Shown here piece after piece: positions 4,988 through 28,785 of a DNA stretch of 47,668 nt. The notes under the pieces are model-generated. The model did not search any database. It was given only the letters and a program-made list of their open reading frames with translations, and was not told the origin of the DNA. Numbering within the stretch: the first letter of the stretch is position 1; each line of letters begins with the position of its first letter. The stretch lies in NCBI RefSeq assembly GCF_014696715.1, contig NZ_JACJQO010000009.1, positions 1 through 47,668 on the forward strand. Reading direction: 5' to 3'. The position numbers and the translations under genes were made by a program. Source of the stretch: Pseudanabaena sp. FACHB-2040. GTDB lineage: Bacteria; Cyanobacteriota; Cyanobacteriia; Phormidesmidales; Phormidesmidaceae.

Positions 4988-7654
4988 TTAATGAAGGTGT
5001 TGAAAGCTCTTTTGCGACGCTGCTGACTCGCTTGATTCACTGCTAGCAGACTGGCGAACGAGAACAACAGTAGCGTTAGTTTTGTCAGCAATTTCTAGCG
5101 GGATATTGCCCTTGAGAACCTGGCTGAGGAGCCCCTCTCGGCTTGCTCCCACTAAAATAGCGTCACTTTGGTACTGCTGGGCTAGCTTAACAATAGCTCC
5201 AGCAATTTCCTCTTGCTGCACAACTAAACATTTGACGGAGCAGCGTAAGGAGCGTAGGGGTGTAGCCAGTTCTACTAGCAGCTGTTCTTCGTGAATCTGC
5301 AGCTGATCGGATGCCCGTTTTGTCACGCAGCACAACCGCACATCGGTCGCTTCGCCCAAACTGACCAGACCGGGCAGGAGCTGCAGCGCCGCCTGAGAAT
5401 TGGGCCCGCCAGCGGTGGGAATGAGCCAGCGATCGAACTGCAGGTCTTGGCCAGGACGCACCACGATCACAGGACAGGGGGCCTGCCGGATTAGGGTATC
5501 TACTACAACTCCCATAATCCGACCAGGAGTAGTGGGCTGTCGATGCCAGCCTGCCAGTACGAGGTCGATATGGCGTTCTTTGATGACTTCTAGCAAGGTG
5601 CGGCCCACCTCATGAGCAGCTCGCACCTGAAAATGCAGCGGCAATCCATTTCGTTGGGCGTAGGCGGTAGCTAGCTGTTCTAGAGGCTCGCTGTACTTTA
5701 GATTGACGGCAGCCTCTGCTGGGGGAATGCTGCGCGGCACCTGAATGATGTGGACGCACTCTAGTTCGTAGTGCTTGTCTTTTGCGATCGCACCCCCAAT
5801 TTTCAGCAGCAGCGGCGCAGTTTTAGGATCGCTTAGAGGCAGCAACAGCCGACCCTGCCCTATGGCGGGCGCTCGTCGCTGGTAAACCACATAGGAGGGT
5901 TGTGCCTGAGGCCCTGGCTCTATTAGCTGGCCGCTAACCTGATCAGACTCAGCCCGGATAATGTCAGCGCGGGTAATGATTCCGACTAGCTTGGTGCCTT
6001 CAACTACAGGTAGGCGGCTGATTTTGAGGCGGTTGAGCAAATACAGCACGTGAGTCAAAGAAGCCTCTGGCCCCACTGAAACGGGATTGGGCGTCATCAC
6101 ATCAGCCAGTTTTGGGTTGCCCTCAGAGCTACTGGCGGCAACCTCACTTAAATCTGTCTGAGTGACAATGCCCACCAAGCGACCTGAATCTAAAACTGGA
6201 AAGCCTCGGTGGTGTGACCTCGAAAAAGCCTGCACTACCTCGGGTAGGCTAATCTGGCTAGAGAGCGTTTCAACCCGCCGCTGCATCAGATCGGCAGCCT
6301 TAAGGTTGGCCCAGGGGTTGTTAGCTTGAGGCACTGGCTCTAGGTGAATGCCCTGCCAAACCAGTAGGCGGCTGTAGATAGAGCCGTTGGCCACCCGATC
6401 AGCAATTAGGTAGGCAATGCCTGAACCGATCATCAGCGGCAGCACCAGGTTAAAGCTGGCAGTCATTTCAAAGACAATCACAATGGCAGTAATCGGTACG
6501 CCTGTAACAGCACTGAAAAAGGCTCCCATGCCGGTCAAGGCATAGGTCGTGGTGCTAGCCAGATCCGCTGGTGGAGCCCACGCCCCAAAGCCGCTGTAGG
6601 TAGCCTGAGCCACAAAGCTTACAAGACAGCCCAGGGCGGATCCGAGCACCAGCGAGGGGGCAAAGATGCCCCCAGCGGCCCCCGACCCATAAGCCAGCAA
6701 GGTCAGCAGAAACTTGGAGATGAATGCGATCGCAATTAGCTGCCAGCTAGCCGCGCCCGTCACCAAAAACTCCTGCAGACCCGTATTGTCTGCAGCGGCA
6801 ATCGGCAGAAATATGCCTACTACCCCTGTGATCAACCCGGCTAAACCCACTCGCTGGGCCAACCCCAGTTTGAACCGACGAAAAAACTTGAGACTGGCAA
6901 AAATACCTCGGCTAAAGCCCGCTCCCAAAAACCCCGCTAGCACTCCCAGCACAATTAGAAACGGCAAGTCCCGAACAGACAGACCTACGCTAGGAGCATC
7001 GATCACCAAGTTCAGCCCTTGGCCTCCCAAGAGGCGAGAGACTACAGCCCCAATAAAAGACGCCAAGATTGCGCTCCCCAGGGTAAGCCCAGAGAAGTCC
7101 TGCAGCAGTTCTTCGACAACGAACAAAATGCCTGAGATAGGCGCATTAAAGCCAGCGGCCAAACCCGCAGCGGCTCCAGCAGAGATCAGCTGTCGGCGGT
7201 ACTCCGGAGAAGTAGGCACCCAACGGCTAAGCTGAGCAGCCAGGGCCGCACCTATTTGCACTGTCGGCCCCTGCCGCCCCAACGAGAGGCCAGACCCTAG
7301 GGCCAACATGGTGCTAGCTAGCTTCACCAGCGCCACCCGCAGGTTCAGGGCCATCGGTGCAAATCCGAGAGCCGCCTTAACCTGGGGAATACCAGAGCCA
7401 GCCGCTTCTGGGGCCAGCCGCTCCACCAGCCCGCCCGAAAGCCAGCCCCCTAAAAGCCCTATCAGCGGCAGCGCCAGCCACAGGGGCAGAGCCAACCCCA
7501 AGGGCAGGGCTAGGGAACTTCGCTGCAGGGTTAGCCACTCTACCCCCTGCTTTAAAAATACGGCTGCTAGCCCAGATACGACCCCAATGATGCAGGCTTC
7601 TAGAATGGCAGCGCGCTTTCGACTTAGAAACGGCTCTAGGCGTTTGAGCAGCAT
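4988..7654 (-). CDS. ClC-family chloride channel/transporter with CBS pair and two USP domains
   Basis: An 888-aa protein. Residues 1-440 form the ClC membrane core, with GSGIPQ (about 86), GIFAP, a retained Glu pair (VVEELL, corresponding to the internal proton Glu region) and a Tyr before the last helix (SIYSRLL). Two CBS domains follow (about 455-570), then two universal-stress-protein domains in tandem (about 589-735 and 742-870), which usually bind nucleotides. The conserved GREGP filter motif reads GRQGP here, with Gln at residue 128 (codon 7271-7273) in place of the external gating Glu. It presumably moves chloride (or another anion) across the membrane under control of the cytosolic sensors; selectivity is not proven. 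It follows tldE by 33 bp on the same strand, so the two are probably co-transcribed. Confidence 0.92.
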   Translation of the reverse strand: MLLKRLEPFLSRKRAAILEACIIGVVSGLAAVFLKQGVEWLTLQRSSLALPLGLALPLWLALPLIGLLGGWLSGGLVERLAPEAAGSGIPQVKAALGFAPMALNLRVALVKLASTMLALGSGLSLGRQGPTVQIGAALAAQLSRWVPTSPEYRRQLISAGAAAGLAAGFNAPISGILFVVEELLQDFSGLTLGSAILASFIGAVVSRLLGGQGLNLVIDAPSVGLSVRDLPFLIVLGVLAGFLGAGFSRGIFASLKFFRRFKLGLAQRVGLAGLITGVVGIFLPIAAADNTGLQEFLVTGAASWQLIAIAFISKFLLTLLAYGSGAAGGIFAPSLVLGSALGCLVSFVAQATYSGFGAWAPPADLASTTTYALTGMGAFFSAVTGVPITAIVIVFEMTASFNLVLPLMIGSGIAYLIADRVANGSIYSRLLVWQGIHLEPVPQANNPWANLKAADLMQRRVETLSSQISLPEVVQAFSRSHHRGFPVLDSGRLVGIVTQTDLSEVAASSSEGNPKLADVMTPNPVSVGPEASLTHVLYLLNRLKISRLPVVEGTKLVGIITRADIIRAESDQVSGQLIEPGPQAQPSYVVYQRRAPAIGQGRLLLPLSDPKTAPLLLKIGGAIAKDKHYELECVHIIQVPRSIPPAEAAVNLKYSEPLEQLATAYAQRNGLPLHFQVRAAHEVGRTLLEVIKERHIDLVLAGWHRQPTTPGRIMGVVVDTLIRQAPCPVIVVRPGQDLQFDRWLIPTAGGPNSQAALQLLPGLVSLGEATDVRLCCVTKRASDQLQIHEEQLLVELATPLRSLRCSVKCLVVQQEEIAGAIVKLAQQYQSDAILVGASREGLLSQVLKGNIPLEIADKTNATVVLVRQSASSESSESAASQKSFQHLH

Positions 7655-9141: not shown

Positions 9142-10764
9142 TTGCCGAGACCTGTGCCAGATACTCCTAAGCCCGGTCGGTCCCTCGCTAATATTGCTGG
9201 GATCGTTGCTGCGGCTACCTTGATTAGCAAGCTCTTTGGCCTATTTCGCCAGCAGGCCATTGGGGCAGCCTTTGCCATTGGTCCGGTCGCCGATGCCTAC
9301 AACTTTGCCTACGTGATTCCGGGGTTTTTGCTGGTGCTTTTGGGCGGTATCAATGGCCCCTTTCACAGCGCTATTGTTAGCGTCGTTGCCAAGCGCAAGC
9401 GGGAAGATATCGGGCCTCTAGTGGAGTCGATCAGCACTCTGGTAGGGCTGGTTTTGCTGGGGGTGGCGGTGCTGCTGGTTATATTTGCCGCACCGATGAT
9501 TGACCTAGTGGCGCAGGGATTGGCCCAAAGCACGCCCGAGGCCAGAGAAATTGCCATTCTGCAGCTGCGGATTATGGCTCCGATGGCGCTGTTTGCCGGC
9601 CTGATTGGCATTGGCTTTGGCACCCTTAATGCCGATGACCAGTATTGGTTACCCTCGGTCAGCCCTCTGTTTTCGAGTGTGACGGTGCTGATTGGGCTTG
9701 GACTTTTGTTTGCTGCTGTGGGGCAGGACATCGTGCGGCCCGAGTATTTTCTGCTGGGGGGAGCGGTGCTTGCGATCGCAACTCTAGCGGGCGCAGTGCT
9801 GCAGTGGCTGGTGCAGCTGCCAGCCCTCTGGCGCTCTGGCTTGGGTCGGCTGCGGCTGCGGTTTAACTGGTCTGATCCGGGGGTGCAGGAGGTCTTTAGG
9901 ATTTTGGGACCGGCCACCTTTTCCTCAGGCATGCTGCAGATCAATGTCTTCACAGATTTGTTTTTTGCCTCGTTTATCCCTGGTACGGCAGCCGCTCTAG
10001 GCTACGCCAACCTGCTGGTTCAGACGCCCCTAGGAATTGTTTCCAACGTTATTTTGGTGCCGTTTCTGCCCATTTTTGCGCGGCTGGCAGCGCCAGAAAA
10101 CTGGCCGGAGCTCAAGAGCCGCATTCGCCAGAGCCTGCTGCTTACGGCCCTGACCATGCTGCCGTTGGGGGCGCTGATTATTACCCTGGCACTGCCCATT
10201 GTGCGGCTAGTTTATGAGCGCGGAGCGTTTGACCTAGAGGCCTCACAAATGGTGACCTCGCTGCTGATCACTTACGGTATCGGCATGTTTGTCTATCTAG
10301 CGCGGGACGTGCTGGTGCGGGTGTTTTATGCGCTGGGAGACGGCCAAACTCCGTTTCGCGTCAGCCTAGCCAACATCGGGCTGAATGCGGTGCTCGACTT
10401 CTGGTTCATCCGCTGGTTTGGCGCGCCTGGTCTAGTGCTGGCAACGGTCGGAGTCAATATCATTTCGGCCTTGGCGATGGTGATTATTCTGGATCGGCGG
10501 CTGCAGGGACTGCCATGGCTGGCTTGGGGCCGCCCAATCCTAGCGCTGACGTTGGCCAGCGGAGCAGCGGGCACCGCCGCTTGGGGAACTCGCCTAGGGC
10601 TTGAGAACTGGTGGGGGATGGAAGGATTTTGGATTCAGCTGCTGGTGCTTGCGATCGCAAGTACCGTTGGCCTCATGCTATTTACGCTGCTTGCCATGCT
10701 GCTGCCTATTCCTGAAACGGGGTTACTGGTGGCACGGCTGCGGCAGCGCTTCCGACGTCGCTAA
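9142..10764 (+). CDS. murJ: Lipid II flippase MurJ
   Basis: A 540-aa polytopic protein with about 14 membrane helices, of the MurJ/MviN branch of the MOP exporter superfamily. MurJ flips lipid-linked peptidoglycan precursor across the cytoplasmic membrane. The N-terminal ATLISKLFGLFRQQAIG and the loop with DVLVRVFYALGDGQTPFR match family signatures; the arginine-rich central cavity residues are consistent. The start codon appears to be TTG at 9142, because an AGGAAAG ribosome-binding site (9128-9134) sits at good distance; the next in-frame GTG, at 9154, would be too far. The downstream multidomain gene follows by about 100 bp on the same strand. Confidence 0.93.
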   Translation: MPRPVPDTPKPGRSLANIAGIVAAATLISKLFGLFRQQAIGAAFAIGPVADAYNFAYVIPGFLLVLLGGINGPFHSAIVSVVAKRKREDIGPLVESISTLVGLVLLGVAVLLVIFAAPMIDLVAQGLAQSTPEAREIAILQLRIMAPMALFAGLIGIGFGTLNADDQYWLPSVSPLFSSVTVLIGLGLLFAAVGQDIVRPEYFLLGGAVLAIATLAGAVLQWLVQLPALWRSGLGRLRLRFNWSDPGVQEVFRILGPATFSSGMLQINVFTDLFFASFIPGTAAALGYANLLVQTPLGIVSNVILVPFLPIFARLAAPENWPELKSRIRQSLLLTALTMLPLGALIITLALPIVRLVYERGAFDLEASQMVTSLLITYGIGMFVYLARDVLVRVFYALGDGQTPFRVSLANIGLNAVLDFWFIRWFGAPGLVLATVGVNIISALAMVIILDRRLQGLPWLAWGRPILALTLASGAAGTAAWGTRLGLENWWGMEGFWIQLLVLAIASTVGLMLFTLLAMLLPIPETGLLVARLRQRFRRR

Positions 10765-10865
10765 CGTAGGCCGACCTTTAACAAAGCTTGCAACAGTTGG
10801 CGTCACTTTCGAGATCTCCGTGTATCCTTACACACAGCCGATTTAGCCTCGCTGGGGTGCCCCCA

Positions 10866-13800
10866 ATGAACACGCTACCGAAGACCTCTTTATTGCTGCT
10901 TGCCCTGCTGACCTCGCTGGTCATGCCTCTGGTAGAGTTCCGACGAGAAAGCGGGCATACCCAGGCCCAAGAGTTTCTGGCTCAGGAATTGATTGAGCCT
11001 GTGCCTACCTTTACTCCGCCCGCTAGCATTGCCGCCGGGACTACCTTGACCATTGACGGGTCACCCAGTATGCGGGCAATCAATCAGGCGTTAGAGCAGG
11101 GATTTGAGAGCCGCTATCCGGGCTCGCAAGTGACCTCGGGCAGCAGCAGCACAGAGGCGGGGCTACAGGCTCTGCTCCAGGGCAACCTCGACCTAGCTGC
11201 AGTCGCTCGCCCCCTCAGTGATGCTGAAATCGCCCAAGGGCTAACTCAAGTGCCCATCAGCCGGGAAAAAATCGCCATTATTGTGGGGCGCGACAATCCC
11301 TTTCAAGGAGATCTCACCTTTAACGACTTTGCGCGGATTTTTCGAGGAGAGATTACCAACTGGGCTCAAGTTGGTGGCCCTAACCTGCCGCTGCGCTTTG
11401 TTGATCGCCCCGCTACCAGCGATACCCGGCAAGCCCTAGGCGGCTATGAAATTTTTCAGGCTGCGCCGTTTGAAACGGGAGCCAATGCGGTTCAAGTTGA
11501 CACAGATGATACGGCTGACGTAGTTCAGACGCTCGGCAACGATGGTGTGGGCTATGCGATCGCATCTCAGGTATTAAACCAGGAAAACGTTCGGGTCTTG
11601 ACTCTAAATAGCACCCTCCCCGACGACCCTCGCTATCCCTACTCCCAACCCCGAGGCTACGTTTACCGGGGCGAGCCCAGTCTGGCCGTAGAAGCCTTTT
11701 TGGGCTTTGCTACCAACCCAGAGGGCCAGCAAGCCGTTGCCGTTGCCAAAGCAGACGAAGCCGCGACAGTAGCCACCGCCGATCTGCTGCCTGGGCAACT
11801 GGCCGTAAGCCCCGATGGCGAATTAATCGTGCGAGGCACTCAAGATGGCCGCCTGGAGTGGTACGACAGCCAAGGCAAGGCTTTGGGGATCACCGTGCCC
11901 GCCCACACCAACCTAGTCACCGGGCTGGCCTTCGCCCCCGACGGGCAAACCCTGGTTTCTAGCAGCGCTGATGGCACCATCCGCCGCTGGGATCGAGAGG
12001 GTAACCCGGTGGGGCAGCCCCTACAGGGCAGTGGTAGCCCGATAACCGCCCTCGCAATCAGCCCCGACGGGCAGCAAATCGCCAGCGGCAGCAACAATGG
12101 CAGCGTTCAAAGGTGGTCAGCTGATGGCACACCGGGCAGTCCTATTGCAGCCCACCAGGGCAGCGTACGGGCTGTGGCCTTTAGCCCTGATGGCCAAACC
12201 CTGATTACTGGCGGTACCGATGCTGCTATCCGACGGTGGAACCCCGATGGCACCGCCGCTGGGGAAGCCGTTGAGGCCCATCTAGGGGGCGTCAACGCTT
12301 TGGCTAGCAGCCCAGACGGCCAGTTTTTGGTCAGCGGCGGCGCAGATGGCACCCTGCAATTTTGGGATGCTGCCGGAACACCTCAAGGTGAGCGGGTAGC
12401 TGCCCATGAAGAGGCTGTCACAGCCATCGCGATTAGCCCCGACAGCCAAACAACCGCCAGTGTCGGTCAAGACAACGTTTTACGGCTGTGGGACCCCAAC
12501 GGCAATCCTCGAGCCACGCCCGAGGGTTCTCTCCCTAGCTCAGTTAGCGATTTGGCCTATACTCCCGAGGGCAATCTGGTGACCAGTCTGGCTGAGGGCG
12601 ACCTGCAGCTGCGCGATCCGCAGGGACGGCTGCGAGGGGATGAACTGCCTGCGCTGCCCAGCAACTCCAATTTGCCGCCTGGAATCAACAATGCCTTGCA
12701 AGGTTTACCCCGCTCAGTCTGGTGGATTATTCCGGCAATTCCGATTCTGCTCATTTTAGTCGGCCTGCTGTGGAGCATCTTTGGCAGACGGCGATCTCCA
12801 GAAGACCCGGAGGAGACTGAACTAGAGGAACTAGAAGACGTTAATGCCCAGCTAGTCAGTGTTCCAGTCGAAAATGTTCCAGCCGAGGATGCTCCAATCG
12901 GAACTGTTCCAGTCGAAGATGTCTCAGCCAGAGTTGACGACATTACTCCTGGAGTACCCGATAACGGCTACCTAACCTCCCCTGAAATACCGCCCGATTC
13001 GGCTTGGGTAGGAGTTCCTGGAGCAATGGTCAAAGACCAACCCTTTAGGGCCACTGCAGATCCCTCTCTGGGGGAAAAACTGAGTCAGGCTAGGGCAGAT
13101 TTGGCAGAGGGCAACCGGCTAGCCAGCACAGGTCACTATGACGATGCTCTCAACCATTTCAATAGCGCAATTGAGGCGGCTGAGGTGGAGCGCATGAAAG
13201 CGATCGCAGCCGGCACCAGTCTGGCTGGAGTCGCCCTGGTTATGGCCCAAGCCACTGCTAGCCAAGGTAACGTCTTGGCACTGTTAGGCCGTTCTGATCG
13301 GGCTCTAGAGAGCTTTAACCAGGCTCTAGAAATAGATGCCGACGCTATAGAAGCTTGGGTGGGCAAAGGTCGCCTGCTGGCAAATATGGGGCAGCTAGAC
13401 GAAGCATTATTTTGTTTTGACAAGGCCCTAGAACTCGATCCGAGCTCTGGTCCAGCCTGGGCTGGCAAAGGGCGCACCCTTATTCAAATGGGAGAGCAGC
13501 AGGAAGGACAGACCTATCTCAGCCGAGCAGCCGAATTGGGCGGCGACGGTGACCCTGTCCCCGCTGAATCTGGTCTGCTAGAGCCTAGAAATCCTAGCGA
13601 CCTAGCAGGCGATCTGCTCACAGACAACATTTCAGATGAATCTACTCTGCAATCACTAGTTGACCCTGCACCCGCATCCTTGCCCGGCCCAATTCAGGCG
13701 TCTACGGGCTTGCCCCAGGCAGACGTACCCGCCGAGCTAGAGCAGGACGTTGCCGATTTACCCAGTGCCAAAACCCTGAAACAACCGGCAGCCCCGCTGG

Positions 13801-15179
13801 CAGATTTAGAAGTGCCAGCGGCCATGCAGGCTGTGGTAGCCGCCCTCCCCGATGAGCCTGAACTGCCTGAACACGCCTTCATCACGGCAGACCAAATCAC
13901 CAATCCGGATGAATGGGAGCAGCCCATTGCCCCCGTTATTTTGGAAGCGCCACCACTGACGCCAGAACAGTCACTCACTCCCACAGAGCTAGCTGCCCCC
14001 CCAGCAACGCTGGTGATAGACGAAGTTTCTCTGCCTGATCCAGAGGATTTACAAGAGATGGCAGAGGCTCTCAGGGCCACGATTGATCTCTCTACCATCA
14101 CGACTCAGACCCGCCAGTCAGGAGACATGGCCCCAGAGAACCCGACTGCGGACATAACCCCAAACCCGCCTAGAGCAGAACGGCCCACAGGTCGGGTGAG
14201 TTTGGTCGAGTACCTCCAGCCTAATGGTCCAGAACCTCCAAGCGGTGCTTTAAGTTCAGGCAGTACACTGGTCCCGGCTGAAGTGGCAGAGCCTGAGGCT
14301 TTAGAGACTGAGGCTGAAGTTGTAGAGCCTGAGGTCGCAGAGCCTGAAGCTGTAGGGCCTGAAGTTTTAGAACCTGAGGTCGCAGAAGTTGTAGAGCCTG
14401 AGGTTATGGAGCCTGAAGCTGTAGGGCCTGACGCTAACCCTGCTCCGGTAGATAGTTTCTCTGGTTCAGGCAATGTATCTATGCTGGATGAGCCTTTAGA
14501 GGCCGAACCTGAGCCGGATCTGGCAGGTGATACCTCCTATCTCTCAGCCACCAATAGCTCAACGACATCCATTCCCGCTGAAGCCCCCCGTGCAGTGAAT
14601 TCCGCCGAACCTGAGCCAGAACTGGTCGAGAGCAGACCCGACAATCCTGACGAAGGCAATGAGTTTGCTGACCTGCCCCCAGAGGTGCTGGCAGCGCTGC
14701 GCGGCATTCCTGCTGATTCCCCTGATTATCTCGATGTGCCCAGCGAAGTGGGAGGCGGGACAGTGAAACCGCCAGCGGTTCCGGCGAATCCCCGCTTGGC
14801 CCAGTTGTTACCAGATAATCTTACCGACCTGCCGACCAGCTGGATGACCCTCGCTCAAGAGACAGGCGGTGAACGCCTTTACACAGTCTGGGAAATTTCT
14901 GATTTGGAGCGAACTGCAGCCAAGCAAGAGGGTGGGGAAACTCTCATGATTCGCCTATACGACGTTACAGGGCAGCCTGCGGCAGGGAGCTTGCCTGCGC
15001 CTATTGATCAGCAAGCGTGTTACGAACTGGCTAAAGACTGGTATCTAGCGCTGCCTGAAGGCGAAAATGTCGAGGCCCAATCAACCCGCACCTATCTAGC
15101 TGAGGTTGGCTACCAAACCAATACCGGAGAGTGGTTAAGCCTAGCGCGCTCTAATTCAGTGACCATCGGCCTTGGCTAA
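10866..15179 (+). CDS. Transmembrane multidomain protein: PstS-like binding domain, WD40 propeller, TPR, DUF4912
   Basis: A protein of 1437 aa. Domains in order: signal/anchor segment (about 5-25); a periplasmic substrate-binding domain of the PstS-like kind (about 57-300, with SGSSSTEAG and a D-L-A-A-V-A-R-P segment); seven WD40-type repeats (about 305-600), most with an SPDGQ turn and an RRW or similar strand end; one transmembrane helix (about 618-640) followed by arginines (FGRRR); TPR repeats (about 740-890); a long acidic, Pro/Glu-rich stretch including a degenerate EPE repeat (about 1139-1192); and DUF4912 at the C-terminus (about 1312-1437). This predicts a periplasmic sensor and propeller joined to cytoplasmic TPR and DUF4912 parts. 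Ligand and output are unknown. ATG at 10866 was preferred to a TTG at 10788 because it begins the hydrophobic signal. Confidence 0.85.
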   Translation: MNTLPKTSLLLLALLTSLVMPLVEFRRESGHTQAQEFLAQELIEPVPTFTPPASIAAGTTLTIDGSPSMRAINQALEQGFESRYPGSQVTSGSSSTEAGLQALLQGNLDLAAVARPLSDAEIAQGLTQVPISREKIAIIVGRDNPFQGDLTFNDFARIFRGEITNWAQVGGPNLPLRFVDRPATSDTRQALGGYEIFQAAPFETGANAVQVDTDDTADVVQTLGNDGVGYAIASQVLNQENVRVLTLNSTLPDDPRYPYSQPRGYVYRGEPSLAVEAFLGFATNPEGQQAVAVAKADEAATVATADLLPGQLAVSPDGELIVRGTQDGRLEWYDSQGKALGITVPAHTNLVTGLAFAPDGQTLVSSSADGTIRRWDREGNPVGQPLQGSGSPITALAISPDGQQIASGSNNGSVQRWSADGTPGSPIAAHQGSVRAVAFSPDGQTLITGGTDAAIRRWNPDGTAAGEAVEAHLGGVNALASSPDGQFLVSGGADGTLQFWDAAGTPQGERVAAHEEAVTAIAISPDSQTTASVGQDNVLRLWDPNGNPRATPEGSLPSSVSDLAYTPEGNLVTSLAEGDLQLRDPQGRLRGDELPALPSNSNLPPGINNALQGLPRSVWWIIPAIPILLILVGLLWSIFGRRRSPEDPEETELEELEDVNAQLVSVPVENVPAEDAPIGTVPVEDVSARVDDITPGVPDNGYLTSPEIPPDSAWVGVPGAMVKDQPFRATADPSLGEKLSQARADLAEGNRLASTGHYDDALNHFNSAIEAAEVERMKAIAAGTSLAGVALVMAQATASQGNVLALLGRSDRALESFNQALEIDADAIEAWVGKGRLLANMGQLDEALFCFDKALELDPSSGPAWAGKGRTLIQMGEQQEGQTYLSRAAELGGDGDPVPAESGLLEPRNPSDLAGDLLTDNISDESTLQSLVDPAPASLPGPIQASTGLPQADVPAELEQDVADLPSAKTLKQPAAPLADLEVPAAMQAVVAALPDEPELPEHAFITADQITNPDEWEQPIAPVILEAPPLTPEQSLTPTELAAPPATLVIDEVSLPDPEDLQEMAEALRATIDLSTITTQTRQSGDMAPENPTADITPNPPRAERPTGRVSLVEYLQPNGPEPPSGALSSGSTLVPAEVAEPEALETEAEVVEPEVAEPEAVGPEVLEPEVAEVVEPEVMEPEAVGPDANPAPVDSFSGSGNVSMLDEPLEAEPEPDLAGDTSYLSATNSSTTSIPAEAPRAVNSAEPEPELVESRPDNPDEGNEFADLPPEVLAALRGIPADSPDYLDVPSEVGGGTVKPPAVPANPRLAQLLPDNLTDLPTSWMTLAQETGGERLYTVWEISDLERTAAKQEGGETLMIRLYDVTGQPAAGSLPAPIDQQACYELAKDWYLALPEGENVEAQSTRTYLAEVGYQTNTGEWLSLARSNSVTIGLG
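14280..14440 (+). repeat. Degenerate tandem repeat encoding (A/V/G)-EPE-type units
   Basis: Short units built on codons for Glu-Pro-Glu with Val/Ala (GAGCCTGA...GCAGAGCCTGA) repeat about a dozen times inside the multidomain gene, encoding an acidic Pro-rich spacer between the TPR and DUF4912 regions. Spacing is irregular (roughly 15-30 nt). Such repeats change length easily by slippage. Confidence 0.75.
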
Positions 15180-15243
15180 GCGCTGCTGCCCACAGCCACC
15201 ATAGCCGCCCTGTATAGTGGTTAGAAGTTAAGTGGGAAAGCCC

Positions 15244-17085
15244 ATGACAGCACCGCTGAAAACCTGGCTCCAAGCCTGTCCTAACCTATTTGCGATCGCA
15301 GCTGCAGCTCTGCACCGAATTAACCGGCCCTGGCAGCGAGGAACGGCGCTGGTCCTGGCAGGGGTATTTGCGATCGCACTGAGCAGCTGTGACCCTTCCC
15401 AGTTTCAGAGAGCCGATGCCGCTTCCACTCCTCGGCTAGTGCTGAGCTCCCTGGGCGATCCCAAAACCTTTAACCCCGTTCTCAACGACGAAGCCAACCA
15501 CGTTTTTGGCTACACCTTTGAGGGCCTGACCACCGGCGATGGCATTACCGGCGAAGTTATTCCCGCCCAAGCCGAGTCGTGGGAGATCTCTGAAGACGGC
15601 AAAACTATCGTCTTCACAATGCGAGAAGGGCTGCAGTGGTCAGACGGAGAGCCATTAACCGTTGACGATGTGCTCTTCACCTACAACGAAGTCATCTTCA
15701 ATGAGGCTATTCCCACCAGCAGTCGTGATGTGATGCGTATCGGTGAGCAAGGGCTTCTGCCCACCGTCAGTAAGCTAGACGACCGGCGTGTGCAGTTTGT
15801 CCTGCCCGAGCCCTTTGCCCCTTTCCTACGCACCACCAGCATGGAGATCCTGCCCGCCCACGTGCTGCGGCCTAGTGTGCAAGAAAAAGACAGTAACGGC
15901 AACCTACGATTTCTCTCCACCTGGGCCTCCGACACTCCGCCTAGCCAGCTCGTGGTCAATGGCCCCTACCGGATCAAGCGCTACACCCCTAGCGAGCGAG
16001 TCGAGTTTGAGCGCAACCCCCACTACTGGCGTAAAGATGAACAGGGCAACCCGCAGCCCTACATTCAAGAACTGGTTTGGCAGGTGATTGAATCTACCGA
16101 CAACCAGCTGCTGCAGTTTCGCTCAGGCGGGTTGGACCTGATGAGCATTTCTCCCGATTTCTACGCGCTGCTGCGGCGAGAGACAGAGCGGGGCGACTTT
16201 AGTATTTACAACGGTGGTCCAGCCCTAGGAACCACCTTCATGACCTTCAACCTAAACAAAGCCAGCCGCAACGGCAAACCCCTCATAGACCCGATTAAGT
16301 CCCGCTGGTTCAACACCCTAGAGTTTCGTCAGGCGGTCTCCTACGCAGTCGATCGCCAAACAATGCTCAACAATATTTTCCAAGGCTTAGGAGAACCCCA
16401 AACCTCCCCCATCTCCAAACAGAGTCCCTACTATGCCGCACCAGAAGAAGGCATTCCGACCTACGACTACAATCCTGACAAGGCCCGCGAACTGCTGCTC
16501 TCAGCCGGATTTCAGTACAGCGGTCGAGGTGAACTGCTCGATGCCGACGGCAACCGGGTGCGGTTTACGCTAATCACCAACTCTGGCAACAAGATTCGTG
16601 AGGCAATGGGCTCGCAGATCCGGCAAGATCTGTCCAAAATTGGTATTCAAGTTGATTTTCAACCAATTGCTTTTAGCGTTTTGGTAGACCGTCTGTCCGA
16701 CAGCCTTGAGTGGGATGCCCACATCCTAAGTCTGACCGGAGGGTTAGAACCTAACAGTGGAGCCAATGTCTGGCTAGTTAACGGCACCCTCCACGCCTTC
16801 AACCAAAATGCGGTCTCTGGGCAGGAACCCCTGGAAGGCTGGGAAGTTGCTGACTGGGAACAGCGCATTTCAGATCTTTACATTCAAGCCGCCCAAACCG
16901 TCGATGAAGATGAGCGTCGGGCACTTTACCGGGAAACCCAGGAAATTACCCAGACCTACCTGCCCTTCATCTACTTAATTAACCCGCTTTCCCTCGCGGC
17001 TGTTCGTAACAAGGTGGAAGGCGTACAGCACACGGCCATCGGCGGCTCTCTCTGGAATCTTCATGAACTCAGGCTGCAGGAATAA
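15244..17085 (+). CDS. ABC transporter substrate-binding lipoprotein (peptide/nickel family 5)
   Basis: About 613 aa. The N-terminal region has a hydrophobic stretch ending in a lipobox-like IALSSC at about residues 46-51, so it is probably a membrane-anchored lipoprotein outside the cytoplasmic membrane. The mature part is a family-5 (DppA/OppA-like) solute-binding protein: the DPKTFNPVLNDE opening, a VDDVLFTYNE segment, FNLNKASRNG, and late LYRETQEITQTYLPFIYL. Substrate is probably an oligopeptide or related compound, but family-5 specificity cannot be read from sequence. No permease or ATPase gene is adjacent. GTG at 15232 is an alternative start four codons upstream. It follows the multidomain gene by about 65 bp on the same strand. 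Confidence 0.88.
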   Translation: MTAPLKTWLQACPNLFAIAAAALHRINRPWQRGTALVLAGVFAIALSSCDPSQFQRADAASTPRLVLSSLGDPKTFNPVLNDEANHVFGYTFEGLTTGDGITGEVIPAQAESWEISEDGKTIVFTMREGLQWSDGEPLTVDDVLFTYNEVIFNEAIPTSSRDVMRIGEQGLLPTVSKLDDRRVQFVLPEPFAPFLRTTSMEILPAHVLRPSVQEKDSNGNLRFLSTWASDTPPSQLVVNGPYRIKRYTPSERVEFERNPHYWRKDEQGNPQPYIQELVWQVIESTDNQLLQFRSGGLDLMSISPDFYALLRRETERGDFSIYNGGPALGTTFMTFNLNKASRNGKPLIDPIKSRWFNTLEFRQAVSYAVDRQTMLNNIFQGLGEPQTSPISKQSPYYAAPEEGIPTYDYNPDKARELLLSAGFQYSGRGELLDADGNRVRFTLITNSGNKIREAMGSQIRQDLSKIGIQVDFQPIAFSVLVDRLSDSLEWDAHILSLTGGLEPNSGANVWLVNGTLHAFNQNAVSGQEPLEGWEVADWEQRISDLYIQAAQTVDEDERRALYRETQEITQTYLPFIYLINPLSLAAVRNKVEGVQHTAIGGSLWNLHELRLQE

Positions 17086-26118: not shown

Positions 26119-28785
26119 CTACAGTAAAGCTGCCGTCTCTGACGCCATTTGGGTGCGGCTAAAACTCTCATCAGCCGTAATTTTCACACTTTCAGGCTGA
26201 GCCCAGAGAATTAGTTTCATGTCGTAGGAGCTGTTGAGATATTGGTGCTGCGGCAAAATCCGTAGGGATAGGCCCTGCAGCCCACTGGTAGTGTAAGTAA
26301 CTTCAACGGTGTATAGACGCTTGCCCTGGGGATCTTGACCCCGATAGGTCATAGGAGTGGCGATACCGCTATGAATTTCGCCGTCCACGCTGACTACACC
26401 TTGATACAGCTCCACCTGAACATCGTCGGGGGTTAAGGCACCCAAATGCAGCCGGGCTTCTACCTGAAAGCTCTGATTCACCTTTAAATCAGTCGCTTCT
26501 GAGATAGCAATTTCCTCGATCCGCATGTCGTACCAGTGCTCAAAAATGTGTGTTTGCCAATGGGCTAGTTCCCGAGCTGGTTTAAAGTCTTGCAAGCCAA
26601 AAGTGGCGCAGCGATCGCTAGCCGCAAAGTAGCCCTGCTCAGCATAGTCTTGCACCATGCGGGCAGTATTAAAGAGCGGCGTATTGAGTCGAATGGCGTC
26701 TTTCATCTTAGCCACCCAGCCCCGAGGAATCTCGTCTTTGTCGCGGTTGTAAAATAGGGGCACAACGGCTTTCTCTAGCAGTTCATAGAGGGCATTGGCC
26801 TCTACGTCATCCTGATAGTCTGGCTCGTCATAATCTTCCCCCGATCCAATTGGCCAGCCAGTGCGTACATAGTCGGCCTCATCCCACCAACCATCGAGCA
26901 CGCTTAAGTTAGGTAAACCGTTCATCGCTGCCTTCATACCGCTAGTGCCAGACGCCTCGCGGGGCCGACGCGGGTTGTTGAGCCAGACATCACAGCCTGC
27001 TACCATTGCCCGCGACAGGTGAATGTCGTAGTTGGGCACAAAAACAATCGATCGGCTCAGCCCTTCATCCCGGGTGAAGTGAATGATGTTACGGATCAGC
27101 TCTTTACCGGGAATGTCTTTAGGGTGAGCTTTTCCAGCAATAACAAACTGCACTCGGCGATTGTGGCCATCTCCTTGAATGATTTGACGAATGCGCTCTA
27201 CATCTCGCAAAAACAGAGTGGCTCGCTTATAGGTAGCAAATCGACGGGCAAAACCGATAGTCAGCACAAAGGGATCGAGCACTTCCTGAGCATCTACCAC
27301 CTCATGGGACGAGGCCCCACGCTCTACCATGCTCTTGGTCAACCGTTCCCGCACATAAACCACGAGCTGAGATCGGCAGAGTTCGTGGTTGCGCCACAGC
27401 TCTTCGTCTGGAATGGTATAGACCCGATTCCAAACGGCATCGGTGGGGCCAGCCTGAGACCACTTGGGTCCTAAATAGCGGTCGTAGAGTTCCTGGGTTG
27501 ACTTGGCGACACAGCTGCGAGCATGAACCCCATTGGTAATGGCGCGAATCGGCACTTCATTTAGCGGCAGGTCTGCCCAAAGCCCCACAAACATCTGGCG
27601 GGAGACCTCAGCATGTAGCTTGCTAACGCCGTTGACAAAAGTCGCCATTTTGATAGCCAGCACGGCCATACTGAAAGGGGCTGAAAAGTCTCCTGTGTTT
27701 TCCCGCCCTAGAGCCAAAAACTCTTCATCAGCCAAGCCAAACCGCTTAGCATAGTGCCCCAAGTAGTAAAGCACTTTGTCAGGCGGGAAGAGGTCAATGC
27801 CTGCAGGCACAGGCGTATGGGTAGTAAAAAGCTGTCCGGCCTGAGCGACCTGTTTGGCCTCAGCAAAGGTCAATCCGTTTTCGTCCATCAGCATTGAGAT
27901 CCGCTCTAGCGCCAGAAAGGCAGAGTGGCCCTCGTTCATGTGGTGGGCAGTGGGCATCAGGCCCAAGGCCCTAAGCATACGAACTCCACCGATGCCCAGC
28001 ATGATCTCCTGGTGGATTCGCATGTCAATGTCACCGCCGTAGAGGCGATCGCAAATATCCTGGTCGTACTGCGTGTTGGGTTCAATGTTGGTGTCGAGGA
28101 GATACAGCGGCACCGTGCCTATCTGAACCCGCCAGACCCGCGCATAAACCACGCGCCCAGGGTACCCTACAGCAATTCGCAGCTCTTCTCCTTGGGCATC
28201 TCGCTCGAGGTGCAGCGGCATGTTGTAGAAGTCGTTGATGGGGTAGCGTTCTTGCTGCCAGCCGTCGGCATTGAAGTACTGGGCAAAGTACCCCTCCTGA
28301 TAAAGCAGCCCCACAGCCACCAGGGGCAGACCTAAATCGCTGGCTGACTTCAGGTGATCTCCCGCCAGCACCCCCAGCCCTCCAGAGTAGACGGGCATAC
28401 AAGAGGTCAGCCCAAACTCCATCGAAAAGTAGGCGTAGCATTCACCTGAAACGATGTTAGAGCGATGCTTCTTAAACCAGGTTCGGTTCTGTAGATAGTC
28501 CTCAAGCCGTTGAGCCGCTCGATTCATCTGGGCTAAAAACCCTTCATCTTCTGCAACTTCCTGCAGTCGGGTTTGACTAATGGTGCCCAGCATCAAAACC
28601 GGATTGTAGCGGCTAGACGCCCACAGGTCAGAGTCCAGACGTCGAAACAGGTCAGTCGCGTCAGTATCCCAATCCCAGTGCAGGTTATAGGCCAGCTTCC
28701 GCAGAGGCTCCAGCTGGGCTGGCAAAGAGGGCGTCACATTAAAGGTGCGAATAGGGCGCATAAATCTCGCCAATGATGCTGTCAT
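26119..28785 (-). CDS. glgP: Alpha-glucan (glycogen) phosphorylase
   Basis: 888 aa, of the bacterial/archaeal alpha-glucan phosphorylase type (TIGR02094 family), with a DUF3417-like N-terminal domain (about 20-110: LRKLAYNLHWDWDTDATDLFRRLD). It phosphorolyses alpha-1,4-glucan to glucose 1-phosphate using PLP. The PLP lysine is K618 in EASGTSGMKAAMNG; YFSMEFGL and NDFYNMPLHL are further family blocks. It would mobilise glycogen in the dark. The frame opens at ATG 28785; many relatives begin at the MRPIRTFNV block, i.e. ATG 28761, which is a real alternative. The gene is followed by a strong intrinsic terminator. The glycosyltransferase gene upstream on the same strand ends about 100 bp before it. 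Confidence 0.95.
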   Translation of the reverse strand: MTASLARFMRPIRTFNVTPSLPAQLEPLRKLAYNLHWDWDTDATDLFRRLDSDLWASSRYNPVLMLGTISQTRLQEVAEDEGFLAQMNRAAQRLEDYLQNRTWFKKHRSNIVSGECYAYFSMEFGLTSCMPVYSGGLGVLAGDHLKSASDLGLPLVAVGLLYQEGYFAQYFNADGWQQERYPINDFYNMPLHLERDAQGEELRIAVGYPGRVVYARVWRVQIGTVPLYLLDTNIEPNTQYDQDICDRLYGGDIDMRIHQEIMLGIGGVRMLRALGLMPTAHHMNEGHSAFLALERISMLMDENGLTFAEAKQVAQAGQLFTTHTPVPAGIDLFPPDKVLYYLGHYAKRFGLADEEFLALGRENTGDFSAPFSMAVLAIKMATFVNGVSKLHAEVSRQMFVGLWADLPLNEVPIRAITNGVHARSCVAKSTQELYDRYLGPKWSQAGPTDAVWNRVYTIPDEELWRNHELCRSQLVVYVRERLTKSMVERGASSHEVVDAQEVLDPFVLTIGFARRFATYKRATLFLRDVERIRQIIQGDGHNRRVQFVIAGKAHPKDIPGKELIRNIIHFTRDEGLSRSIVFVPNYDIHLSRAMVAGCDVWLNNPRRPREASGTSGMKAAMNGLPNLSVLDGWWDEADYVRTGWPIGSGEDYDEPDYQDDVEANALYELLEKAVVPLFYNRDKDEIPRGWVAKMKDAIRLNTPLFNTARMVQDYAEQGYFAASDRCATFGLQDFKPARELAHWQTHIFEHWYDMRIEEIAISEATDLKVNQSFQVEARLHLGALTPDDVQVELYQGVVSVDGEIHSGIATPMTYRGQDPQGKRLYTVEVTYTTSGLQGLSLRILPQHQYLNSSYDMKLILWAQPESVKITADESFSRTQMASETAALL

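Follow-up and report, generated by a model that had tools for sequence, protein, structure and literature searches.

The window, a stretch of 47,668 nucleotides from Pseudanabaena sp. FACHB-2040, carries on its forward strand an ORF at 10866-15179 that is open throughout and encodes 1437 residues counted from an ATG. An alternative TTG start is possible upstream, at 10788; the ATG start matches the aligned N-termini of many relatives. The features of the protein, and the gene that follows it, are listed below with the evidence used to assign each.

10866..10970, + strand: signal-peptide-like N-terminus, residues 1-35 (hydrophobic peak; low AlphaFold confidence)
11031..11765, + strand: PstS/Sll0540-like periplasmic binding domain, residues 56-300 (PF12849, AlphaFold)
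11787..12638, + strand: seven-bladed WD40 beta-propeller, residues 308-591 (Pfam, local repeat model, AlphaFold, structural alignment)
12717..12785, + strand: predicted single transmembrane helix, residues 618-640, then RRR (hydropathy, AlphaFold)
12860..12922, + strand: short degenerate repeat (VPVENVPAED...) in the linker after the helix (repeat search)
13248..13538, + strand: TPR repeats, residues 795-891, with a weaker one at 743-771 (Pfam, local model)
14253..14450, + strand: acidic EPEVAEPEA-type repeat linker, residues 1130-1195 (sequence)
14871..15167, + strand: DUF4912, predicted Fn3-like beta-sandwich, residues 1336-1434 (Pfam, AlphaFold, VIA-align)
15232..17085, + strand: next gene, a family-5 solute-binding lipoprotein (SBP_bac_5, 272.6 bits), with the motif LSSC, which we take to be lipobox-like

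The first-pass annotation had described a one-piece protein composed of a phosphate-binding-like domain, a full seven-WD40 propeller, a transmembrane segment, TPRs, an acidic repeat and DUF4912, and this architecture was confirmed by Pfam, local models and AlphaFold. Residues 56-285 belong to the fold family PBP_like_2 (PF12849; 113.9 bits, cut-off 27), and many WD40 families in Pfam match between residues 298 and 575. Seven WD repeats were counted with a local model made from the protein's own repeats, and structural alignment of the AlphaFold model of residues 308-591 with a known seven-bladed propeller gave a Z score of 39.7 and an rmsd of 1.6 over 279 aligned residues, the VIA-align rows for the propeller model spanning residues 308-588. 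Over residues 1-710, modeled with 18 relatives, the mean pLDDT was 81.2, and most residues of the two outer domains exceeded 90. Beyond the helix, TPR_2 scored 65.4 bits (cut-off 27) and DUF4912 (PF16258) 55.7 bits (gathering cut-off 29.4; 60.9 bits in another search). The long linker between them is acidic and proline-rich: residues 1130-1195 hold 19 D/E and no K/R over 66 residues, and the underlying DNA contains a degenerate tandem repeat at 14310-14435. A reading of the ORF as a defense gene was rejected; PADLOC returned a HEAT-ARM match of 99.3 bits, but over residues 278-459, mostly propeller. PADLOC also gave two further weak TPR models for the protein, and no match for the family-5 lipoprotein or two sister proteins.

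The model of the DUF4912 copy (pLDDT 88.2) is Fn3/Ig-like. Because Foldseek found no structure similar to this model at an E value of 0.001 or better, and FN3 or Ig-like domains make up most of the 50 VIA-align rows, we describe the domain as Fn3-like only, and on the same results a carbohydrate-binding role for DUF4912 is not supported; the best VIA-align row (Z 8.9, rmsd 3.0 over 85 residues) was a domain of a pectate lyase. DUF4912 is also shared with a protein (L001) whose N-terminus is Rho_N-like by eye (a weak 17.1 bits to TIGR00767), which differs from the window protein in having 426 residues and no recognized membrane part; relatives of L001 were found in 39/39 genomes searched, one of them matching from residue 104 on only. 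A further DUF4912 protein (L002, on contig C18 of the window's genome) is an 817-residue membrane-type protein with an acidic linker and no recognized binding domain. In a literature search that left most subscription journals outside its reach, DUF4912 was named only in work on cotton callus, as judged from its title.

The placing of the binding domain and propeller outside, and of the TPRs and DUF4912 inside, a single membrane helix, as proposed in the first-pass annotation, is borne out by prediction. The N-terminus has a signal-like hydrophobic peak at residues 7-25, with low AlphaFold confidence to about residue 42. The predicted membrane helix at residues 618-640 stands, with a hydrophobic peak at 621-639 (mean Kyte-Doolittle value 2.61) and an AlphaFold helix at 624-639, and is followed by RRR. 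In 115 of 124 complete fused proteins the binding domain is separated from the first inner domain by a hydrophobic helix, the other nine having none at the threshold used. In these 115 relatives there are eight cysteines in the 46,866 residues of the outer parts (residue 36 up to the helix), 111 of which are entirely free of cysteine, vs. 472 in the 74,248 residues of the inner parts; the proteins of the window type (n = 20) have three in 11,801 outer and 61 in 12,215 inner residues, and both cysteines of the window protein itself, 850 and 1385, sit on the predicted inner side. Folds differ in cysteine content anyway, and we therefore regard this contrast as support for the topology and not as proof. 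An excess of K/R after the helix relative to before it occurs in 84/115 proteins and is absent from 31. Only six of the 20 window-type proteins, the window's included, show this excess, and the residues just past the helix are acidic in 19; the positive-inside rule would thus be mostly silent or contrary for this type, though it holds for the window protein. This result left our estimate of a receptor unmoved, because the signal-like start, the cysteine contrast and the RRR of the window protein agree. By prediction only, the protein has the layout of a Venus-flytrap receptor, with a PBP domain outside, one helix and an inner part.

Of 388 genomes in the class to which the window belongs, 259 contain relatives of the outer domain (E up to 1e-15), and some of these relatives are short stand-alone PstS-like proteins, as open-frame lengths showed when 45 genomes were searched again. 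When 84,980 species genomes were scanned, 344 relatives were confirmed, and the best 80 are all cyanobacterial by record title. For a census of architectures we collected 192 ORFs (159 after removal of duplicates) from loci that were the best matches to the window domain, or came from a later search or from matches to the domain of locus L080, so that the sample is biased to close matches; domains were called with local models derived from the window's own repeats and DUF4912 seeds, and the proportions refer to the 135 complete members, window's included, the 24 partial ones being excluded. The order of the window protein, PBP-WD40-TPR-DUF4912, occurs in 20 of the 135 (window's included), PBP-DUF4912 in 78, PBP-WD40-TPR in six, and PBP-WD40-DUF4912 and PBP-TPR in four each. 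A glycogen phosphorylase domain is present in 11, five of these with TPRs, an acetyl-CoA synthetase in one, and none of the local-model domains in a further 11. Complete PBP-DUF4912 proteins have from one to ten copies of DUF4912, the ten being found in a 2290-residue receptor of Okeania (L133, 8860-15732, +). In another relative (L161, 1731-6812, +), the binding domain and helix are joined to long coiled coils and helix-hairpin-helix repeats. The window architecture had been noted as lacking a known characterized parallel; it is no isolated case, given that other cyanobacteria have proteins with the same order and with many variants of it.

We built a quick tree of 104 domains, 38/101 of its inner branches being open. 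Receptor-type domains (88 rows) form a group separated, with SH-aLRT 97, from rows of the Sll0540 type. The window domain groups with 24 others, all WD40-type but one DUF4912-only row (SH-aLRT 95), and the phosphorylase- and TPR-type domains form a common lineage together with two unassigned rows (SH-aLRT 99). The WD40-DUF4912 label requires at least two changes, even on the starred branches, and hence parts of these proteins have been acquired or lost repeatedly. This pattern, one group of outer domains against varied inner parts, is what an input module with interchangeable outputs should show. As judged from these comparisons, the outer domain is the head of a larger cyanobacterial family, mostly of predicted single-span proteins, with exchangeable inner parts. 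We found no description of a PBP-headed receptor family of this kind in the literature searched, most subscription journals lying outside that search.

Among solved structures, the family profile matches Sll0540 of Synechocystis best (PDB 9l8j; E 4.2e-78), a structure for which we found no paper, and PstS proteins next. The window family and Sll0540 have in common the PBP domain and the Arg, Ser and Thr of its cradle. They differ in that the best match to Sll0540 in each of 13 genomes is an open frame of only 257-338 residues, a length that leaves no room for propeller, helix, TPR or DUF4912. To compare pockets, we aligned 159 sampled domains with 13 stand-alone rows (from Sll0540-type loci, one row being an outlier) and two PDB chains. 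R115 is kept in all 159 sampled domains, R181 and T187 in 149 each and S185 in 153. The phosphate contacts reported for E. coli PstS include T10, F11, S38, D56, R135, S139, G140 and T141 (PMC10846223). Reading by eye along the R...SGT motif, we take R181, S185 and T187 to be the likely counterparts of R135, S139 and T141, with Asp in the place of G140. This S-D-T is found in the window domain (D186) and most receptor-type domains, vs. S-G-T in Sll0540 and the PstS structure 4q8r: the Gly position is Asp or Glu in 89/89 PBP-DUF4912, 11/11 phosphorylase-type and 21/23 other domains, and Asp (23), Ser (12) or Ala (1) in the 36 of WD40 type, the stand-alone rows retaining Gly in 12/13. A second change precedes R115, where all 13 stand-alone rows have Ser (S-R in Sll0540, G/A-R in the window family); this position is Gly in 85/89 DUF4912-type, 34/36 WD40-type and 7/11 phosphorylase-type domains, and Ala (A114) in the window protein. 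The ligand had been suggested to be phosphate or a related oxyanion. By its sequence the oxyanion-type cradle stands, and phosphate itself is less safe, because S-D-T has replaced S-G-T. An anion cradle would thus persist in altered form, with plain phosphate not assured and only one candidate ligand, and the changes at D186 and A114 could mean another ligand or none.

With PstS (PF12849, TIGR02136) the window protein has in common the fold family and the R...S.T motif; it differs in scoring below the cut-offs of both PstS models (TIGR02136, 90.7 vs. 206.6 bits; TIGR00975, 24.1 vs. 205), in having no ABC transporter alongside and in its large inner part. With BvgS it shares the plan of a one-protein transmembrane receptor with a PBP-type domain outside, but BvgS has flytrap domains in tandem and works as a sensor kinase (PMC4352136), whereas the window protein pairs a PstS-type domain with a propeller and contains no enzyme domain. 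PBP-type receptors are therefore already known, and a family with a PstS-type head is apparently undescribed in what we could consult. Our reading of the window protein, which we hold to have an even chance of being right, is a type-I single-span ligand-binding receptor/scaffold of the cyanobacterial envelope that acts by protein contacts. The PstS-type clam-shell would bind an oxyanion-bearing ligand (phosphate, a phosphate-bearing or a related compound), ligand binding and the propeller would set the state or partners of the outer part, and the TPRs and DUF4912 would relay that state by protein-protein contact. We favor protein contact as the output because no enzyme domain was found in the protein.

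Possible partners of the inner part are suggested by sister receptors whose binding domain is fused to a glycogen phosphorylase domain, the two being separated by a hydrophobic helix in 11/11 ORFs. The two phosphorylase enzymes of the window genome itself contain EASGTGNMK, with the PLP lysine. That lysine is replaced in 9/9 fused ORFs that reach the site, L168 and L174 being too short to do so and outside this count, and in 5/5 further phosphorylase ORFs that are close matches, with a binding domain detected in the same ORF in two of the five and not in three. The loss thus extends to 14/14 phosphorylase domains reaching the site (nine groups at 80% identity), and it is for this reason that the domains look like dead enzymes. 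In the stretch KR.HEYKRQ the first Lys is lost in 14/14 and the Arg in 12/14 of them; we presume that these two residues, and the PLP lysine, serve PLP and phosphate. As to gene order, we considered phosphorylase- or TPR-type genes for which 1.9 kb or more of downstream sequence was available; 9/14 are followed within 2.2 kb by a second receptor-type gene of the same orientation (10/16 if two unassigned relatives, L161 and L175, are added; L168, with 60 bases downstream, is excluded). Before this count several loci were already known to have two receptor genes, and L050 and L080 had prompted the idea; some of its negatives rest on just 2-3 kb of downstream sequence.

Since the genes of some sisters, which contain a pseudo-glycogen-phosphorylase, adjoin the gene of a DUF4912 receptor, analogy suggests that the cytosolic partners have to do with storage carbohydrate, which for the window protein is a hypothesis from sister proteins and gene order only. 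A wider and decidedly tentative proposal, which we think unlikely to hold in full, is that these proteins make up a modular set of cyanobacterial one-span receptors. The PstS-derived head, its anion site altered, would sense a phosphate-type signal outside; arrays of Fn3-like DUF4912 domains, together with TPRs and dead enzymes of metabolism, would relay it inside, and external phosphate status would be linked to how stored glycogen is handled, with no kinase or second messenger. The window protein would represent a branch that gained a propeller. If true, a transporter-type binding domain would have found a second use as an interchangeable head for receptors whose outputs are pseudo-enzymes and DUF4912, bacteria would have a new way to link outside nutrient status to inside carbon storage, and DUF4912 would gain a concrete context.

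It is also feasible, if somewhat unlikely, that the protein is a structural tether of the envelope, in which the PBP-like domain and propeller bind envelope proteins with no switching by ligand and the TPRs and DUF4912 anchor a cytosolic assembly. Both pocket changes (S-D-T and G/A-R) are consistent with this, as are the long acidic, proline-rich linker, the relatives with up to ten DUF4912 copies or with coiled coils and helix-hairpin-helix repeats, and the finding of no signaling enzyme as output in 11 relatives scanned with Pfam (the remainder having been scanned with local models for DUF4912, WD40, TPR, phosphorylase and acetyl-CoA synthetase only). A mere surface, however, would have no need of the cradle Arg, Ser and Thr, which are largely kept.

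We consider it improbable that the protein is a tethered auxiliary phosphate-binding protein feeding the Pst transporter, although its nearest solved relative, Sll0540, has been described as potentially the fourth Pi-binding protein in Synechocystis (PMC5053081). The large inner domains have no evident feeding role, and the TIGR02136 score is far below its cut-off. The window gene lies away from the pst genes, its neighbors being MurJ and SBP_bac_5; a canonical PstS gene, followed by pstC/pstA/pstB-like genes (named by eye), is present on contig C5 of the same genome, so that transport is covered. A Pho-box scan, with a consensus that we assumed, scored 12 of 16 upstream of the window gene and found 8 of 133 upstream regions of family genes at 13 or above vs. 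4.0 expected from base shuffles, an excess that appears weak at most and no clear enrichment. Conserved neighbors were sought at E 1e-20 in 80 loci, many of which end at contig ends. The family-5 lipoprotein does follow on the same strand as had been noted, "orphan" having been judged from immediate neighbors only, but the association is not conserved, a homolog recurring in 1/80 loci (L072). ClC and PmbA homologs were near a relative in 1/80 (L117), MurJ and ChlH homologs were beside relatives in none of the 80, and recurrent neighbors of WD40-type genes were confined to a group of close relatives. Neither analysis gives clear support for a response to phosphate. Least probable is an uncleaved N-terminal anchor, giving two spans with the outer part looped between them and a function otherwise as receptor/scaffold, for although segment 7-25 is hydrophobic and its cleavage site only putative, it is followed by a stretch lacking confident model structure, as after cleaved signals, which points weakly to cleavage.

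Around the receptor genes, of which we read the window's as encoding a single-span receptor/scaffold, several further observations were made. A protein of ~130 residues, with no Pfam match, is encoded in 19/80 loci, mostly directly upstream of the receptor gene, and its domain also ends some DUF4912 receptors. Two copies of this domain are present in a 1597-residue protein encoded upstream of a receptor gene (L128, 3391-8184, +), the N-terminus of which is vWA-like by eye, with no Pfam match above cut-off. In the acetyl-CoA synthetase fusion (L172, 377-4567, -), in which the enzyme domain is joined to the binding domain via a helix, a search for the pattern YG.TE found none, and YTSGSTGKPKG and PKTRSGK, the nucleotide-binding and C-terminal lysine motifs, are retained. 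The window also encodes a DUF3417-type alpha-glucan phosphorylase (26119-28785, -), 11 kb from the receptor gene and with no sign that the two belong together. Elsewhere in the same genome (L261, contig C11), a PstS-like ORF (6314-7510), which at 156.7 bits does not reach the TIGR02136 cut-off, precedes a true glycogen phosphorylase (9748-12369) on the same strand at a distance of 2.2 kb.
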